64,000 nucleotides of DNA, taken from Rhodopirellula halodulae (lineage in GTDB: Bacteria; Planctomycetota; Planctomycetia; Pirellulales; Pirellulaceae). Positions 37,978 to 53,455 of this stretch are shown here, piece by piece. Position 1 is the first letter of the stretch, and each line of letters starts with the position of its first letter. The stretch covers positions 423,023-487,022 of the forward strand of contig NZ_JAJKFV010000011.1 of NCBI RefSeq assembly GCF_020966775.1, written 5' to 3'. The translations under genes and the position numbers were made by a program. The notes beneath the pieces are model-generated. The model ran no database searches and was not told the DNA's origin. It saw only the letters and a list, made by a program, of their open reading frames with translations.

Positions 37978-38394
37978 TCAGAGCTTGTCCAACTGCGGCC
38001 GTGACGGCACGACATCGGCCAACGTCACGCTCTTCAGATATTCCATCTGAACGCGTTCGGCTTCGGCCAAAACGCCCTTGAGCTTGCAGAAAGAATGAAT
38101 GGCACAGCTATCGTCCGTGCCCACGCATGAAAGCAGATTGGTGTCCTGCTCCACGGTTGCGACCACTTGGCCAACCGAGATTTCTTCGGGTGGAATGGCT
38201 AACTCGATGCCACCACCCACTCCACGAATGCTCCGCACGTAGCCTTCTCGTGCGAGGAGATTGACCACTTTGGCGACGTGATTCACCGAGATGTTGAACA
38301 GCGAGGCCACACTGGCGACGTTGGCTCGAGTATCTCGCGTTGCCAAATACATCAACGTTCGCAACGCGTAATCGGTCTGAGTGGTCAGTTTCAT
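37978..38394 (-). CDS. Rrf2-family regulator, NsrR-like (three-cysteine Fe-S type)
   Basis: Regulator of 138 residues. Winged helix at 1-65 (MKLTTQTDYALRTLMYLA, NISVNHVAKVVNLLAREGYVRSIRGVGGGIELA). Cys90, Cys97 and Cys103 (LLSC...DDSCAIHSFC) match the cluster-binding cysteines of NsrR/IscR-type members; the spacing fits NsrR, the nitric-oxide sensor. It is divergent from the small secreted protein and multihaem cytochrome genes, which it may control. NO sensing is inferred from cysteine spacing and wing sequence. Confidence 0.88.
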   Translation of the reverse strand: MKLTTQTDYALRTLMYLATRDTRANVASVASLFNISVNHVAKVVNLLAREGYVRSIRGVGGGIELAIPPEEISVGQVVATVEQDTNLLSCVGTDDSCAIHSFCKLKGVLAEAERVQMEYLKSVTLADVVPSRPQLDKL

Positions 38395-38424
38395 GGCGTC
38401 TTCAGATTAAACCAGTGCAAGCAA

Positions 38425-38450
38425 AATATCGTACTGACTTTTGAATATCG
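38425..38450. promoter_or_regulatory. direct repeat AATATCG in the Rrf2 divergent region
   Basis: AATATCG occurs at 38425-38431 and 38444-38450, 19 bases start to start, within the 214-base region between the Rrf2 gene and the divergent secreted-protein gene. Spacing of about two helical turns is compatible with a dimer or tandem site. It is not a classic NsrR palindrome. Confidence 0.3.
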
Positions 38451-38608
38451 CCGTGGCTGGTTAACAAATCGAGTTCGCTTCGGTCCCTTATCTGCCCTAG
38501 TTTGATTGACTTCGGAAGATTCTCCGCCTAGTCTCAGGACGAGGCCGTTGAAGTTTTTTCAAGCTTCCTCGTCTTTTCGGCCCGCATCGCTCGGTTTTTG
38601 ACTGATCC

Positions 38609-39079
38609 ATGTCGCGTGTTCTTCTCCTCTTGCTAGCTCTTTTTGCACTGGTGGGCGTTCTGACGCCGCGTTCAGCGGAGGCGAGTTGTGGAGATTGGCT
38701 GCAACACCCGACGTCTCCATCCGAACCGTCCATTTCGGCGAGTGCGGCTGGCGGTCACGTTGCGAATGCCGACGATGACGCAGCGTCCGAAGCGTTTTCG
38801 AGCCAAGGGCATTCGCAGCCGAATCGCCCCGTTCCGCCGTGCAGCGGACCTCTGTGCAGCAAGCTGCCTTCGCTGCCGCTGCCTGCTCCCATGCCACCCT
38901 TACCGGTGCGTTCTCATCAGGAAGCTGCCTGGTTGGAACTGCGGCCCGCCGAGATTTTGCGAAGCTTCGCCCTGCGAGACGCAGAGGCACCTCTCGCGCT
39001 TCGAGAGGGTTTCCAGCAAGGAATTGATCGCCCCCCGCAATCGCCCAAGCCTTTCGGTTTGGAGCCGCTGCTCGGTTGA
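38609..39079 (+). CDS. small secreted Cys/Pro-rich protein
   Basis: Exported protein of 156 residues of unknown function: clean signal peptide MSRVLLLLLALFALVGVLTPRSAEA, then SCGDWLQHP, a disordered Ser/Asp stretch, and a PPCSGPLCSKLPSLPLPAPMPPLP motif with two cysteines. The C-terminal third is hydrophilic with leucines. It lies 209 bases before the multihaem cytochrome gene on the same strand and opposite the NsrR-like regulator. The cysteines may hold metal or disulfide; nothing more can be said. Confidence 0.75.
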   Translation: MSRVLLLLLALFALVGVLTPRSAEASCGDWLQHPTSPSEPSISASAAGGHVANADDDAASEAFSSQGHSQPNRPVPPCSGPLCSKLPSLPLPAPMPPLPVRSHQEAAWLELRPAEILRSFALRDAEAPLALREGFQQGIDRPPQSPKPFGLEPLLG

Positions 39080-39288
39080 ATCGATGATTAATGGCGTGAT
39101 TGCGCCGTGACAGCGATCCACCTTCATTTGCTCTGACTTGCCAGTCACGTTTCGATTTCGATTCGTGACATCGACGGTGATCATGCGTCTGCGCAATTCG
39201 TGCCAACGCGGATCACATCGCCGCTTTGGATCCTCACGGACGAAGTGGCCGTTCCCGTCAGTCCATCCGATCTGCTGGAAGGATCATC

Positions 39289-42183
39289 ATGTCGCCTGTT
39301 GAAAAAACCGGTGCGACGACCGCCAAACCTCGCAAGAAATACGTCCGGGCGGTCGGACCACGTTTGAAGAAACTGCTCTACCTCATCTTCGTTCTCTTCG
39401 CGTTGTTGCTGGCCAATTCGGGCTACCTCGCGACGTTCACGTTCTTGGAATGGTTCAAGAACCAGACCTACCAGGATTACTTTTATCAATACATGTTCCT
39501 CGCCCATTTGGTGATGGGACTGATCCTGATTCTGCCCGTTGTCATTTTCGGATTCATTCACCTTTGGAACACCAAAGACCGCCGCAACCGTCGAGCTGTG
39601 CGAATCGGGTATGCGTTGTTCGTCGTCAGCTTGGGCATTCTGGCAACGGGAATTCTGCTGGTCCGCATCGGTGGTTTTGATTTGAAACAACCGTTGGCAC
39701 GCAACACGGTTTACTGGTTGCACGTCGCGTTTCCACTGGCGGCGATCTGGCTGTACTGGCTGCATCGCTTGGCGGGCCCGCGAATCAAATGGCGAATCGG
39801 AATGAGCTTTGCCGGTGTCGCGGTGGCTTCCATTGCCATCATGGTCATTTTGCAGATGCAGGATCCTCGTCAATGGAACGCGATCGGCCCCGATTCTGGC
39901 GTGCAATACTTCGAACCTTCGTTGGCTCGAACATCCAGCGGCAACTTCATTCCATCCGATGCCTTGATGAATGATGAGTATTGCCTTAAATGTCACGCCG
40001 ACATCCACAAGGATTGGCAGGACAGCGTTCATCGCTTCAGTTCGTTCAACAACGCGCCGTACTTCGCCAGCGTTAGCGAAACGCGAGCTAAATCGCTCGA
40101 GCGTGATGGTTCGGTGCAGGCATCACGTTGGTGCGCCGGTTGCCACGATCCAGTGCCGTTCTTTTCGGGCGCTTTTGATGATCCTGAGTTCGACATGCGA
40201 GAGCACCCCACAGCAAAAGCGGGGATCACTTGCACGGTCTGCCACGCGATCACCAATGTGAACAGCGTTCGTGGCAATGCGGACTACACGATCGAGGAAC
40301 CTTTGCACTACCCATTCGCAAGTAGCGACAACAAAGTCCTGCAGTGGGTGAACAACCAATTGGTCAAAGCCAAGCCATCGTTCCACAAAAAGACGTTCCT
40401 CAAACCGTTTCACAAGACTGCGGAGTTCTGCTCCACCTGCCACAAGGTGCACCTGCCGGCTGCACTGACGGGCTACAAAGAGTTCCTACGTGGGCAGAAC
40501 CACTACGACCCGTATTTGTTCAGTGGTGTTTCGGGACACGGTGCGAGAAGTTTTTACTACCCGCCCAAAGCGGTCGACAATTGCAGCAAGTGTCACATGC
40601 CATTGGTCGCCTCCGATGACTTTGGCGCCCAACTGTTCGACGGTGCATCGGAACTCAGTGTCCACGACCACATGTTTCCGTCGGCCAACACGGGCATCGC
40701 GTGGCTGCGGAATCGTGATGACGTGATCGCGGCTCACCAAGAGTTCCTGCAAGACGTGATGCGAGTGGACATTTTCGGACTGCGTGACGGCGGTGAAATC
40801 GATGGCAAACTGACCGCACCACTCCGGCCGGAAGTCCCCGCGGTCCGCCCTGGCGAAAAGTACTTGATGGAAACCGTCATCCGCACCATGAAGATGGGGC
40901 ACTTGTTTTCGCAAGGCACGGTCGACAGCAACGAAATTTGGTTGCAGGTCAAAGTGACCAGCGGCGATCGACTGATCGGACATAGCGGACTGATCAACGA
41001 GAACGAACACAATGCGGTCGACCCTTGGTCGCACTTCGTCAACGTGTTCATGCTCGACAAAGACGGCAACCGCATCAACCGACGCAATGCGGAGGACATT
41101 TTCACGCCGCTTTACAACCACCAAATTCCACCGGGCGCCGGGCAAACGGTTCACTATGAATTGCAGATCCCGGACGACGTGACCGAACCGGTTCAGGTCG
41201 AATTGAAATTGCTGTATCGCAAGTTTGACACGGAGTACATGGACTTCGTTGCCAAACAAAACGAGGCTCACGGCGACCTGATCCGAGGCCATGAACCTGG
41301 TCAGGATTACACAAACGAGCTGCCCATCACGACACTCGCGACCGACAGCATTGTCTTTCCGGTTGACGGAATGAACCATGAGGTCGACAACGCCCCACGC
41401 GAAATTCCGCAGTGGCAGCGTTGGAACGACTACGGCATTGGTTTGTTGCTCAAGGGCAAAGCGGAACTTCGACAAGCGGAAGCCGCGTTCACCGAAGTCG
41501 AAAAGCTGGACCGTTGGGACGGACCAATGAATCTCGCTCGTGTTCTGAACACCGAAGGCCGGTTGGACGAAGCCGTGGAAGCATTGCAACGCGCCGACAC
41601 GTTCCGTGATGAGGAGGGTTACCCTCGTTGGACCTGGGCATGGCTTTCGGGTGTGATCAATGCCCAGCAAGGACGTTTGGAAGCGGCGGAGCAAAACCTT
41701 CGCAGCGTGCTCGAGGACAACACGGAAGACATGCAAAAGCGAGGTTTCGACTTCAGCCTGGACATTGAAGTCATCAACGAACTTGGGCGGACGCTATTCG
41801 ACCTTGGCAACGTTCGCGAGCGGCAGCGTCGTGAAGAAGAAAGCGTCGAGTACTTCCACGAAGCCGTGGCCCAATACAAAAAGACGCTGATGATCGATCC
41901 CGAGAACGTGTCCGCGCATCACAACTTGCAGTTGTTGTACGAACGCCTCGGTGAACAAGAGCTCGCCGAAAAGCATCGACAACGGCATTTGATTTACAAA
42001 CCCGATGACAACGCGCAGGGCCGGGCGATTCGACTGGCTCGCGAAAAATATCCGGCCGCCAATCATGCTGCGGAAGCGGTGGTGAAGTACTCGCTGCATC
42101 GACCGCTTCCCGAGCCTCCATCGGACGAGCCCGATCCGAACGCTGTGGCGACGCAAACCAAGGAGATTCGTGATGAGCAATAA
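39289..42183 (+). CDS. membrane cytochrome: b-type-like bundle, five c-haem motifs and TPR domain
   Basis: Protein of 964 residues; the ATG at 39289 is chosen for GGAAGGA six to twelve bases upstream. Five helices (about 29-51, 68-92, 107-125, 141-158, 171-191) carry histidines at 73, 91, 145 and 159, as in di-haem b bundles. Five CXXCH motifs follow at about 232, 282, 315, 381 and 432. Then comes a domain of unknown fold and, from about 720, TPR repeats (WQRWNDYGIGLLLKG, NVSAHHNLQLLYERLG). Likely moves electrons from quinol to a periplasmic acceptor. Overlaps the CRTAC1 gene by 11 bases. Substrate unknown. Confidence 0.88.
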   Translation: MSPVEKTGATTAKPRKKYVRAVGPRLKKLLYLIFVLFALLLANSGYLATFTFLEWFKNQTYQDYFYQYMFLAHLVMGLILILPVVIFGFIHLWNTKDRRNRRAVRIGYALFVVSLGILATGILLVRIGGFDLKQPLARNTVYWLHVAFPLAAIWLYWLHRLAGPRIKWRIGMSFAGVAVASIAIMVILQMQDPRQWNAIGPDSGVQYFEPSLARTSSGNFIPSDALMNDEYCLKCHADIHKDWQDSVHRFSSFNNAPYFASVSETRAKSLERDGSVQASRWCAGCHDPVPFFSGAFDDPEFDMREHPTAKAGITCTVCHAITNVNSVRGNADYTIEEPLHYPFASSDNKVLQWVNNQLVKAKPSFHKKTFLKPFHKTAEFCSTCHKVHLPAALTGYKEFLRGQNHYDPYLFSGVSGHGARSFYYPPKAVDNCSKCHMPLVASDDFGAQLFDGASELSVHDHMFPSANTGIAWLRNRDDVIAAHQEFLQDVMRVDIFGLRDGGEIDGKLTAPLRPEVPAVRPGEKYLMETVIRTMKMGHLFSQGTVDSNEIWLQVKVTSGDRLIGHSGLINENEHNAVDPWSHFVNVFMLDKDGNRINRRNAEDIFTPLYNHQIPPGAGQTVHYELQIPDDVTEPVQVELKLLYRKFDTEYMDFVAKQNEAHGDLIRGHEPGQDYTNELPITTLATDSIVFPVDGMNHEVDNAPREIPQWQRWNDYGIGLLLKGKAELRQAEAAFTEVEKLDRWDGPMNLARVLNTEGRLDEAVEALQRADTFRDEEGYPRWTWAWLSGVINAQQGRLEAAEQNLRSVLEDNTEDMQKRGFDFSLDIEVINELGRTLFDLGNVRERQRREEESVEYFHEAVAQYKKTLMIDPENVSAHHNLQLLYERLGEQELAEKHRQRHLIYKPDDNAQGRAIRLAREKYPAANHAAEAVVKYSLHRPLPEPPSDEPDPNAVATQTKEIRDEQ

Positions 42184-44044
42184 GCCCAAGATCAAAGAGC
42201 CTGAAATGAACGAAGTCGACGAAAGCGAACTTCGTGACGAGGCCGACATTGGTCGCGCCATGCGAAACTCCGTGGTCGCGGTTGCTTTGCTGGCAATTGC
42301 CGGGGGCAGCCTGGCTTACTTGCTCAGTCGCCCGGAGCCACCGCCCCCGGTCCGAGAATCGAAGTTGGCCGAAGTCGCGATCCGCGAACAACCCAAGGTT
42401 GCCATCCCGACGGTTCCATTTCGAGACATCACGGACGAAGCGGGCATTGAGTTTGTCCACAACAATGGCGCAACCGGCAACAAGCTGTTGCCCGAAACCA
42501 TGGGAGGCGGCAACGCATTCTTCGACTTTGACAACGATGGGGATGCGGACTTGCTGCTGGTGAATTCCAAAGATTGGGAGTGGGATTCACCGAGCGGTAA
42601 GAGCAACGTTTCCGCCTTGTACCGCAACGATGGTGGCCAGTTTGTGGATGTCACCGAAGGGTCCGGTTTAGACGTTGCCCTGTACGGGATGGGCGCCGCC
42701 GTGGGCGATTTTGATCAAGACGGCTTGGTCGACGTGTTCCTTTCGGCGGTGGGTGAAAACAAACTCTTCCGCAACCTGGGTGAAGGCAAGTTTAAGGATG
42801 TCACGGAGCTGGCCGGTGTTGGCGGCGAGCAGGATCGCTGGAGCACCAGCTCGGGTTTCTTCGACTATGACAATGATGGCGACTTGGATTTGTTCGTCTG
42901 CAACTACGTCGTTTGGAGCCGCCAGTACGATCAATCCCAGGGCTTTCAATTGGTGGGCGGGGGGCGTGCCTATGGTCGCCCGCAAAACTTCGAAGGCACG
43001 TTCCCTTATCTCTACCGCAACGATGGCGAAGGAAAATTCACGGACGTTTCGGAAGCATCAGGCATCCAGATCCGCAACGTATCGACGGGGGTCCCACAAT
43101 CCAAATCGCTGGGACTTGCGTTTTGCGACTTTGACCAAGACGGCCATCAAGACATCGTTGTCGCCAACGATACGGTTCAGAACTGCCTGCTTCGCAACAC
43201 CGGCGATGGCAAATTCGTTGAGATGGGAGCCATCTGCGGGATCGCGTTCGACTCCACCGGAAACGCTCGCGGTGCCATGGGAATCGACATCACGCCGTTT
43301 CGCGAACGGACGAGCATGGCCGTTGCCATTGGGAACTTTTCCAACGAGATGACGGCTCTGTATGTCACCAAGACGGGTCGCATGCAGTTCTACGACGAAG
43401 CGGTCTCCACGGGGCTCGGCCCCAGCACGCGACTGCTTTTGACCTTTGGATTGGCCTACGTGGATTTCGATCTGGACGGACGATTGGATTTGTTTTGTGC
43501 CAATGGGCACTTGGAAGAAGACATCAACCGTGTCCAACCAAGCCAGCACTACGAGCAACCACCGCAGATGTTTTGGAACGCGGGTTTTGAATTCGATACC
43601 GAGTTCTTGCCGATGGGTGAAGAACAGGTCGGCGCGGAGTTCCTACAACCCATGGTGGGCCGAGGTGCTTCCTACGCGGACATCGACCTCGATGGAGACC
43701 TGGATTTGCTCATCACCTCCACCGGGCAAAAGCCGAGGCTTCTTCGCAATGACCAGGACTTAGACCATCACTGGATCCGTCTGAAATTGGTCGGCGATGG
43801 CGAGCGTTGCAATCGCGATGCGATCGGTAGCTGGGTCGACATCGAAGTGGGCGACCAGGTTCTGACACAGCAAATCATGCCGACGCGGAGTTACCTATCG
43901 CAGGTCGAACTGCCCTTGTCAGTTGGTTTGGGTGAGCACGATGAAATCAAGCAGGTCACGGTCCGTTGGCCGGATGGATCGGTCAGCGAACATGGGTCCC
44001 TAGAAGTCGACCGCGAACACGTGATCGAGTATTCGGGTACCTAG
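42173..44044 (+). CDS. CRTAC1 family protein (FG-GAP/VCBS repeats, ASPIC/UnbV)
   Basis: Protein of 623 residues from the ATG at 42173 (a GTG directly precedes it); AAGGAG lies upstream. One membrane anchor (AVALLAIAGGSLAYLL) follows an acidic head. The outside part has repeated calcium-binding FG-GAP/VCBS blades (FFDFDNDGDADLLLVN, FDYDNDGDLDLFVCN, FCDFDQDGHQDIVVAND, YADIDLDGDLDLLIT) and a C-terminal ASPIC/UnbV module (ITQQIMPTRSYLSQVELP-like region with SVGLG and VRWPDGS). Translation is coupled to the multihaem cytochrome. A scaffold or partner on the cell surface is inferred. Confidence 0.9.
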   Translation: MSNKPKIKEPEMNEVDESELRDEADIGRAMRNSVVAVALLAIAGGSLAYLLSRPEPPPPVRESKLAEVAIREQPKVAIPTVPFRDITDEAGIEFVHNNGATGNKLLPETMGGGNAFFDFDNDGDADLLLVNSKDWEWDSPSGKSNVSALYRNDGGQFVDVTEGSGLDVALYGMGAAVGDFDQDGLVDVFLSAVGENKLFRNLGEGKFKDVTELAGVGGEQDRWSTSSGFFDYDNDGDLDLFVCNYVVWSRQYDQSQGFQLVGGGRAYGRPQNFEGTFPYLYRNDGEGKFTDVSEASGIQIRNVSTGVPQSKSLGLAFCDFDQDGHQDIVVANDTVQNCLLRNTGDGKFVEMGAICGIAFDSTGNARGAMGIDITPFRERTSMAVAIGNFSNEMTALYVTKTGRMQFYDEAVSTGLGPSTRLLLTFGLAYVDFDLDGRLDLFCANGHLEEDINRVQPSQHYEQPPQMFWNAGFEFDTEFLPMGEEQVGAEFLQPMVGRGASYADIDLDGDLDLLITSTGQKPRLLRNDQDLDHHWIRLKLVGDGERCNRDAIGSWVDIEVGDQVLTQQIMPTRSYLSQVELPLSVGLGEHDEIKQVTVRWPDGSVSEHGSLEVDREHVIEYSGT

Positions 44045-52992: not shown

Positions 52993-53455
52993 CGATCGGG
53001 CTTGGGCTACAAACGGAGAGCCAGAAAACGTTCGCAACGGAGAGGGCATAGCAAGCAGCATCATGGAGGCAATTGGACAAACAACTTCTTTGCAGACCTT
53101 CCCATCATAGAAGATTTTGCTCGCCACGCTCGTGTCGAATGCGAATCAATTGTTCATGTGCTAGCAATCTAACTGCACCCGGGTTGGTCATTCTTCGATC
53201 GAGTCAGTCAGTGCTGGTTGATCGATTCGGATCCACCACTTGTGAACTTCGTTTCAAGCTTCGACGGGAATCACGCATTCCCATGAAGGCCATTTGCGTC
53301 AATCACGTGCATTCGCTCATCAACATGAACGCGAGATGAATATTCGGCGGAAGATCAATCGCGACGCTCCCCATCGGAACACGAGATGCACGATCGGTTG
53401 TCGCCGGAACCGACGTTGAGTTCCGGAACATCCCCCGGTTTGAAAGGATTTCCCT
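52993..53455. other. divergent intergenic region
   Basis: About 460 bases between the EEP-fold gene and the DUF4142 gene with no supported gene. It contains promoters for both directions; the DUF4142 ribosome site AAAGGA lies near 53444. Short frames here have no recognisable content. Confidence 0.45.

Follow-up and report, generated by a model that had tools for sequence, protein, structure and literature searches.

The locus

A stretch of 64,000 nucleotides from the planctomycete Rhodopirellula halodulae (assembly GCF_020966775.1, contig NZ_JAJKFV010000011.1, positions 423,023 to 487,022 of the forward strand) is called the window here, and coordinates refer to it. Within the window, three genes follow one another on the forward strand in what is presumably an operon. 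The first encodes a small, secreted-looking Cys/Pro protein. The second encodes a b/c cytochrome with five CXXCH motifs and a TPR tail, and the third, which overlaps the second, a CRTAC1 protein. Opposite them lies the gene for an NsrR-like regulator of the Rrf2 family. A preliminary description, made from the sequence alone, had listed this gene set, and the observation is confirmed, every member being present (Table 1).

The reading modestly favoured here is that the cytochrome and the CRTAC1 protein form a membrane-bound, periplasmic, quinol-linked b/c module, and that the Rrf2 protein is an incidental NsrR-type neighbour whose targets lie elsewhere.

Table 1. Features of the operon and of the gene opposite it, in window coordinates
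Feature	Position	Strand	Remarks
Rrf2-family regulator gene, NsrR-like	37978..38394	-	138 aa; Asp8, Cys90, Cys97, Cys103; judged a neighbour outside the module
Promoter-like element TTGACT-N17-TAGTCT	38506..38534	+	74 b upstream of the small gene
Small secreted-looking Cys/Pro protein gene, first in operon	38609..39079	+	156 aa
b/c cytochrome gene	39289..42183	+	964 aa
Cytochrome membrane part, residues 24-190	39358..39858	+	H73, H91, H145, H159; predicted di-haem b bundle
Cytochrome haem domain, predicted periplasmic	39952..40698	+	CXXCH at residues 232, 282, 315, 381, 432; invariant extra His 248, 366, 461
Cytochrome beta domain, c552/PHC fold	40759..41358	+	about residues 491-690; holds invariant H538
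Cytochrome TPR superhelix	41407..42018	+	about residues 707-910; Pfam TPR
CRTAC1 protein gene	42170..44044	+	N-terminal transmembrane anchor, read by eye; six motifs of the DxDxDG type in an FG-GAP propeller; UnbV/ASPIC domain

The likely start of the cytochrome is the ATG at 39289, preferred over a mechanically assigned TTG at 39226. The CRTAC1 gene starts at GTG 42170 or ATG 42173, and overlaps the cytochrome gene by 11-14 bases.

The comparisons below draw on loci gathered from best matches, from a six-peptide scan, and from regions picked by a match to the cytochrome or the regulator, not by neighbour. Hand selection, by which fragments, duplicates, and frame-shifted or cut genes were variously left out, entered the counts of His conservation, promoter patterns, distance correlation and small-protein occurrence. 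The R. halodulae genome is itself an assembly of 33 contigs and 6.6 Mb; among the named loci of the six-peptide scan, its best match is Rhodopirellula europaea (L039), at 87%.

The cytochrome

The five CXXCH motifs of the cytochrome start at 39982, 40132, 40231, 40429 and 40582. All five are invariant in 52 aligned homologues, as are H73, H145, H248, H366, H461, H538 and H582; H91 and H159 are conserved in 98% of the same sequences. Hydropathy gives four transmembrane segments in the N-terminal part. Here, the AlphaFold2 model (pLDDT 78.5, pTM 0.74 for the full protein) has five long helices, at residues 24-57, 64-95, 101-124, 135-162 and 168-190, of which the second bears H73 and H91 and the fourth bears H145 and H159. 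These four membrane His are predicted to hold two b haems, and the cytochrome would probably carry about seven haems. With a positive N-terminus and five membrane crossings, the haem domain would lie in the periplasm. A b-haem bundle, five CXXCH motifs and a TPR tail had all been proposed beforehand, and each has its counterpart in these data, haem b being predicted from the His.

Residues 222-690 of the model match the pentahaem cytochrome c552 (5ze8), with a Z of 19.3 and a root-mean-square deviation of 3.9 over 342 of 385 residues (VIA-align). When the haem domain is modelled alone, the model is poorer (pLDDT 67); 5ze8 is again at the top, at Z 12.9 against 8.5 for the next row, and the rows below it, at Z 8.5 or less, are beta-domain matches that were left uninterpreted. 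MccSep, AvECN and NrfA are not among the structure matches shown, by which nothing is excluded. The arm that follows, residues 707-910, matches TPR structures, the TPR protein MamA (3vty) among them at Z 18.7.

The cytochrome therefore has the c552 fold without being filed in the soluble PHC family, since its membrane segments stand in the way. Five CXXCH haem motifs are present, and both models show the c552 fold with its Ig-like beta domain. The PHC family is, however, one of soluble extracytoplasmic proteins, and this protein has four transmembrane segments by hydropathy and five long N-terminal helices in the model.

Homologues of the cytochrome occur in 56 of 98 genomes, and in 83 of 294 drawn from the phylum (E 1e-20), with R. 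halodulae counted in both. Subfamily A holds the close orthologues of the window protein; subfamilies B and C are 25-31% identical to A. The B proteins (about 30%) have five CXXCH motifs and TPR. Those of C (about 25-28% identity, about 700-850 aa) have four CXXCH and a first motif of the form CX4CH, and no TPR was found in the three scanned. Fourteen sequences that span the three subfamilies retain every one of the five haem motifs; in them, H73, H145 and His 248, 366, 461 and 538 are present in 14/14, and H91 and H159 in 13/14. Thus, four invariant extra His (248, 366, 461 and 538) are available to five haems, and the fifth haem is left without a universally conserved His partner.

A haem left open in this way might, of course, be where chemistry is done. 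Under the alternative that follows, which is possible but doubtful, the cytochrome is a terminal reductase, fed by quinol via the b haems, in which the open c haem reduces an N- or S-oxyanion, NO (nitric oxide), hydroxylamine or peroxide. The five haem motifs and the four further invariant His common to A, B and C would suit such an enzyme, as would the haem domain's conserved stretches of SSFNN and QNxYD type; the available part of PMC11976967 places the PHC-type relatives sPHC and lPHC among potential catalytic cytochromes with pentacoordinate haems. However, all five motifs are CXXCH, with the CXXCK of the NrfA type absent, and no match to the NrfA or HAO families rose above the cut-off. 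Nor do genes of any single pathway recur around the cytochrome in the loci inspected by eye, and a non-His ligand could occupy the fifth site.

Two narrower identities were rejected. The active haem motif of NrfA, the pentahaem nitrite reductase, is CXXCK, and none of the five motifs here has that form. Selenocysteine was considered for the in-frame stops of homologues; in the eight loci checked, all of these lay at protein ends (the start in L066, the C-terminus in the others).

The fold itself might suggest that electrons are carried out of the cell. The haem domain is folded as in c552, which the available part of PMC11976967 relates to ExtKL and AvECN, and both ExtKL/PHC and AvECN, an archaeal relative of c552, have been put forward as extracellular electron-transfer or nanowire-type conduits. 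Such a conduit is very unlikely here. The N-terminus of the cytochrome is membrane-anchored and its TPR arm is large; no porin or outer-membrane cytochrome was recognised alongside it in loci read by eye, whose neighbours were mostly not family-scanned; and the sequence of the window CRTAC1 protein has no CXXCH.

A nearly constant partner

The third gene encodes a CRTAC1 protein by any standard used here. It matches the Pfam families FG-GAP_3 (E 4.6e-33, 114 bits, cut-off 26.9) and UnbV_ASPIC (E 1e-17, 64 bits, cut-off 23.4), and it has a solved relative in cartilage acidic protein 1 (9etn, E 1.3e-29).

The regularity with which this gene follows the cytochrome speaks for a module. Six duplicates were removed first, together with 14 entries that were fragments or had less than 900 b of downstream sequence. 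Among the 104 distinct loci that remained, with at least 900 b downstream, 95 have a CRTAC1 gene on the same strand no more than 600 b downstream of the cytochrome (A 82/87, B 7/11, C 6/6). Chance adjacency is estimated at well under 1%, since the 6.6-Mb genome of R. halodulae contains 11 UnbV matches. The co-occurrence of CRTAC1 with this cytochrome, by which the preliminary description would have had its proposal judged, is thus found. The distance matrices of the two proteins correlate with an r of 0.95 over 47 loci, a value reached in 0/2000 permutations. Records under the labels Lysobacterales, Proteobacteria and Candidatus Sulfotelmatobacter (L058, L062, L067, L065) carry the pair as well. 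Judged from its presence across three subfamilies, the pairing is old.

At L058, L062, L067 and L068, the pair lies in metagenome-assembled genomes whose labels read Lysobacterales, Proteobacteria or Gammaproteobacteria, and transfer and binning error are both possible there.

A hint as to how the two proteins might meet comes from the movement of the TPR. At L219, a locus of subfamily C, the cytochrome belongs to the TPR-less subfamily and a TPR block stands instead at the C-terminus of the CRTAC1 protein (L219:1975-4539); by its domain order, this is a domain swap between partner genes. At L216, the next gene combines TPR with FG-GAP and is cut by the contig end. Among the CRTAC1 paralogues of the R. 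halodulae genome, eight of the nine scanned carry TPR either within their own reading frame or in a preceding gene that overlaps them (E 1e-5); L232 has none, and a tenth paralogue, L234, was outside the scan. Because TPR goes with CRTAC1 both in L219 and in eight of nine paralogues, it is probably the docking part that mediates contact between cytochrome and CRTAC1.

The small protein, the promoter and the surroundings

The small protein has a conserved signature, ASCGDWL...PCxGPxC...RPP, in which ASCGDWL follows a signal-like N-terminus and a proline-rich run precedes RPP. Pfam, NCBIfam and PHROG gave no match for it. Among 96 subfamily-A loci, a count that still contains duplicates, 59 have a match to its profile upstream of the cytochrome; among 17 loci of B and C, none does.

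Upstream of the small gene, the promoter-like pattern TTGA[CT]N-N17-TAnnnT is found in 20 of 22 loci, against 0.6% of shuffles, which preserve base content only, as do those used for palindromes below. The pattern was drawn after 16 of the 22 loci had been inspected; four of the six others have it. It is present in 6/6 loci with an Rrf2 neighbour and in 14/16 without. A standard consensus promoter scan gave no promoter at 38506..38534.

The operon is flanked on one side by a MarR/DoxX/RND-efflux cluster (two RND-type genes recognised by eye) and on the other by a response regulator and histidine kinase pair. At another locus, L066, a TamA/TamB-like pair adjoins the cytochrome, again by eye. 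Rfam had no match at its gathering threshold anywhere in the 64-kb window. Phage origin was rejected, PHROG having given no match.

The regulator and its likely targets

The regulator is an Rrf2 protein by Pfam (E 1.2e-35, 123 bits, cut-off 30). It scores 105.2 bits with the NCBIfam NsrR equivalog, below the cut-off of 182, and is therefore called NsrR-like here, not NsrR. Its best solved relative is NsrR 5n07 (1.1e-14). Asp8 and Cys90, Cys97 and Cys103 align with the cluster ligands of ScNsrR, which are Asp8 and Cys93, Cys99 and Cys105 in the available text of PMC9338935. The three cluster cysteines of NsrR that had been read from the sequence before are thus present, with Asp8 in addition. 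Asp8 is kept in 20 orthologue loci, and so are the three Cys, except in the broken match of L090.

Orthologues of the regulator occur in 22 of the 60 genomes searched, R. halodulae included; these gave 20 loci, G016 and G027 having yielded none. Only in six of the 22 does the regulator stand beside the cytochrome (G000, G002, G004, G005, G007 and G010), and all six are close Rhodopirellula relatives. Each of the 14 other loci has, close by, a haem protein of the Tll0287-like kind, a conserved monohaem protein that belongs to no Pfam family, or a gene resembling ScdA_N at a score under the Pfam cut-off; none of these accompanies the six Rhodopirellula regulators. Across L077-L104, planctomycete NsrR-like genes are seen with Tll0287-like monohaem proteins, the monohaem protein outside Pfam (FENEPINYG type) and ScdA_N-like genes, and many of these regulator genes have an NsrR-type palindrome.

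The palindrome tests used a 22-position NsrR consensus; one of the same type is given in the available text of PMC1274295. The first hint of a motif was a dyad count, in which AAGATG-N11-CATCTT appeared in 4/20 regulator genes against a maximum of 2 in shuffles. The consensus is matched at 14 or more of its 22 positions, upstream of or across the start, in 11/20 regulator genes, against 22/940 shuffled regions. A position weight matrix was built from nine of the sites that it scored, so that those nine scores are circular; the 22-position consensus test is not.

The window's own copy of the regulator has no NsrR-type palindrome upstream. The divergent gap has none by alignment, consensus or weight matrix, its best matrix score being 0.1, the 63rd among the 23-mers of the window. 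In 22 operon upstream regions, the NsrR score is never above 3.7 bits.

A pattern search of genomes matched 26 times in the forward sense, across 12 genomes, where its reversed control matched 14 times; single matches therefore prove little. Of the 11 matches whose loci were inspected, eight lie at hmp (L148), at nirB-like genes (L145, L146, L147), or near Tll0287-like genes (L150 and L153, and by eye L154 and L156), and none at the cytochrome operon. Two further matches, L143 and L144, fall on the regulator's own gene. In G004, G005 and G007, the match precedes a nirB-like nitrite reductase gene (L145:1501, L146:1501, L147:1501; the family was tested in G005 only, on a partial gene). The one match within one mismatch in the R. 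halodulae genome, at G000:C9:295164-295186 (L148:1501-1523; L161), lies upstream of the flavohaemoglobin gene hmp, whose product exceeds its NCBIfam cut-off (508 vs 432). This palindrome overlaps a -35-like TTGACA, about 73 b before the approximate hmp start. Taken as sequence patterns, these data hint at a likely NsrR-type regulon in planctomycetes. Within the window, matrix matches at 53322 (16.1 bits) and 52511 (12.8 bits) lie near genes without an evident role in nitrogen metabolism, and may be chance.

A regulator that faces an operon invites the idea that it controls it. Here, the Rrf2 protein would bind the divergent gap and keep the cytochrome operon repressed, with NO or Fe-S damage lifting the repression. 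The divergent layout, the NsrR-type ligands and the conservation of the arrangement in six Rhodopirellula genomes all fit this idea, which is nevertheless unlikely. Against it stand the facts that adjacency to the operon is seen in just those 6 of 22 regulator genomes, that the gap lacks a palindrome, that the promoter-like element is equally conserved without the regulator, and that the inspected pattern matches are mostly at hmp, nirB-like and Tll0287-like genes. The regulator's place opposite the operon is probably incidental, that of a chance neighbour, because the adjacency is restricted to six close relatives, no palindrome was found, and the promoter-like element is kept regardless. That NO or Fe-S status governs the operon is accordingly the part of the preliminary description that is not supported, given the regulator's uneven placement and the absence of a recognised site in the gap and in 22 upstream regions. 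Reading the regulator apart from the operon keeps a doubtful NO label off the module and brings to light, as a side result, what may be a planctomycete regulon of the NsrR type.

How the module might work

Under the favoured reading of a membrane-bound, quinol-linked module, quinol would be oxidised at the membrane part and electrons would pass via the two b haems to the five periplasmic c haems. The fifth c haem, which lacks a conserved distal His, may be the exit or the catalytic site, so that electrons would either pass to a periplasmic acceptor or react at the open haem. CRTAC1 would dock on the TPR arm as a structural partner, and might there present or shield either the haem domain or whatever that domain reacts with. 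For the small Cys/Pro protein, a role as a secreted accessory in maturation, or in metal or thiol handling, may be supposed in part of the group. The Rrf2 protein would be an NsrR-type NO sensor with targets elsewhere, hmp being one in its own genome. The haem motifs, conserved His, fold match and conserved pairing support the earlier idea of an extracellular or periplasmic electron-transfer unit, in its membrane and periplasmic form.

Several observations weigh against this reading. It asks for haem b, quinol, co-transcription, docking and catalysis beyond the gene content, conservation and predicted folds that were observed. The b haem sites are placed from conserved His in models that contain no haem, and L065 lacks both H91 and H159. 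The membrane part falls below every Pfam cut-off in three cut-outs scanned, and among solved structures it has no convincing relative, a weak transporter match (E 0.085) aside. Nine loci (L054, L066, L108, L110, L178, L189, L206, L207, L225) have no CRTAC1 gene directly downstream, although in L110 one lies directly upstream instead. A shared species history would also yield an r of 0.95, and TPR is a general protein-binding module. As for the regulator, three of the 11 inspected pattern matches (L151, L159, L160) are at no gene of the kinds named above. Most relatives lack the hmp site: among 16 hmp loci from 14 genomes, those of R. halodulae (16.3) and G018 (12.2) alone score above 10.9, the 99th percentile of shuffles, and that of G005 scores 4.9. 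The window site at 53322, moreover, scores 16.1, next to the 16.3 of hmp.

A broader proposal can be offered tentatively, as something rather less than probable. The cytochrome may represent a widespread and so far undescribed planctomycete class of quinol-linked periplasmic oxidoreductase, in which one chain holds two b haems and five c haems of the c552/nanowire-related fold, one of them open, and with CRTAC1 docked via a TPR arm that has moved between proteins in evolution. Homologues are also found in records labelled Gammaproteobacteria and Candidatus Sulfotelmatobacter. If true, this would mark, as far as we know, the first time that a redox role is found in the CRTAC1/ASPIC-UnbV family, whose members exist in vertebrates as well. 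We know of no biochemical role for the bacterial CRTAC1 proteins, for which no dedicated search was made; near-fixed pairing with a membrane multihaem cytochrome gives them a testable one. The genomes that carry the cytochrome are mostly those of aerobic heterotrophs. Because a b-haem-like part is joined, in such organisms, to a haem fold shared with cytochromes for which extracellular electron transfer has been proposed, the cytochrome may be an unrecognised respiratory branch.

Comparison with known systems

The cytochrome is closest to pentahaem c552 and the PHC family. It shares with them the fold of the haem domain and its C-terminal beta domain, and resembles them weakly in sequence across the first three haem motifs (E 1.2e-5). 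In its available part, PMC11976967 relates c552 to ExtKL, Gsu2801 and the PHCs of cable bacteria, and describes these PHCs as soluble and extracytoplasmic. What sets the window cytochrome apart from the PHC family is a membrane part with four conserved His, a TPR arm at the C-terminus, and CRTAC1 as an almost constant partner. In joining a membrane part with predicted b haems to a multihaem c domain, it may be likened to the CbcL-type b/c fusion quinol oxidoreductases, which are built in this way. With the multihaem selenoprotein MccSep (9wt8/9wt9) it shares a weak sequence similarity that spans the first two haem motifs (E 2.5e-4); unlike MccSep, it has no in-frame stop inside.

Its partner is like other CRTAC1/ASPIC-UnbV proteins in having an FG-GAP propeller and a UnbV domain above the Pfam cut-offs. 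It is a short form that stands beside a cytochrome and, unlike most of its scanned paralogues in the same genome, has no TPR of its own. Hydrazine synthase was rejected as an identity for the system, since its architecture does not fit. The available part of PMC12758564 does report a CRTAC1 gene beside genes for hydrazine-synthase-like subunits, of the HZS alpha and beta-gamma type. That cluster is a precedent for CRTAC1 among cytochrome genes, although it contains, as described there, no such cytochrome with membrane and TPR parts.

The candidate regulon resembles the NsrR regulon of PMC1274295, so far as that text is available, in its palindrome type and in having hmp as a target. It differs in that its candidate targets include Tll0287-like haem proteins; neither Planctomycetes nor Rhodopirellula is named in the main text of that paper.

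The preliminary description knew of no characterised system with this gene content, and none was found in the open-access literature, including the available parts of PMC12758564, PMC1274295, PMC9338935, PMC10732223 and PMC11976967, a scope that falls short of proving absence. The components are of known kinds; their combination, and its conservation, look new.

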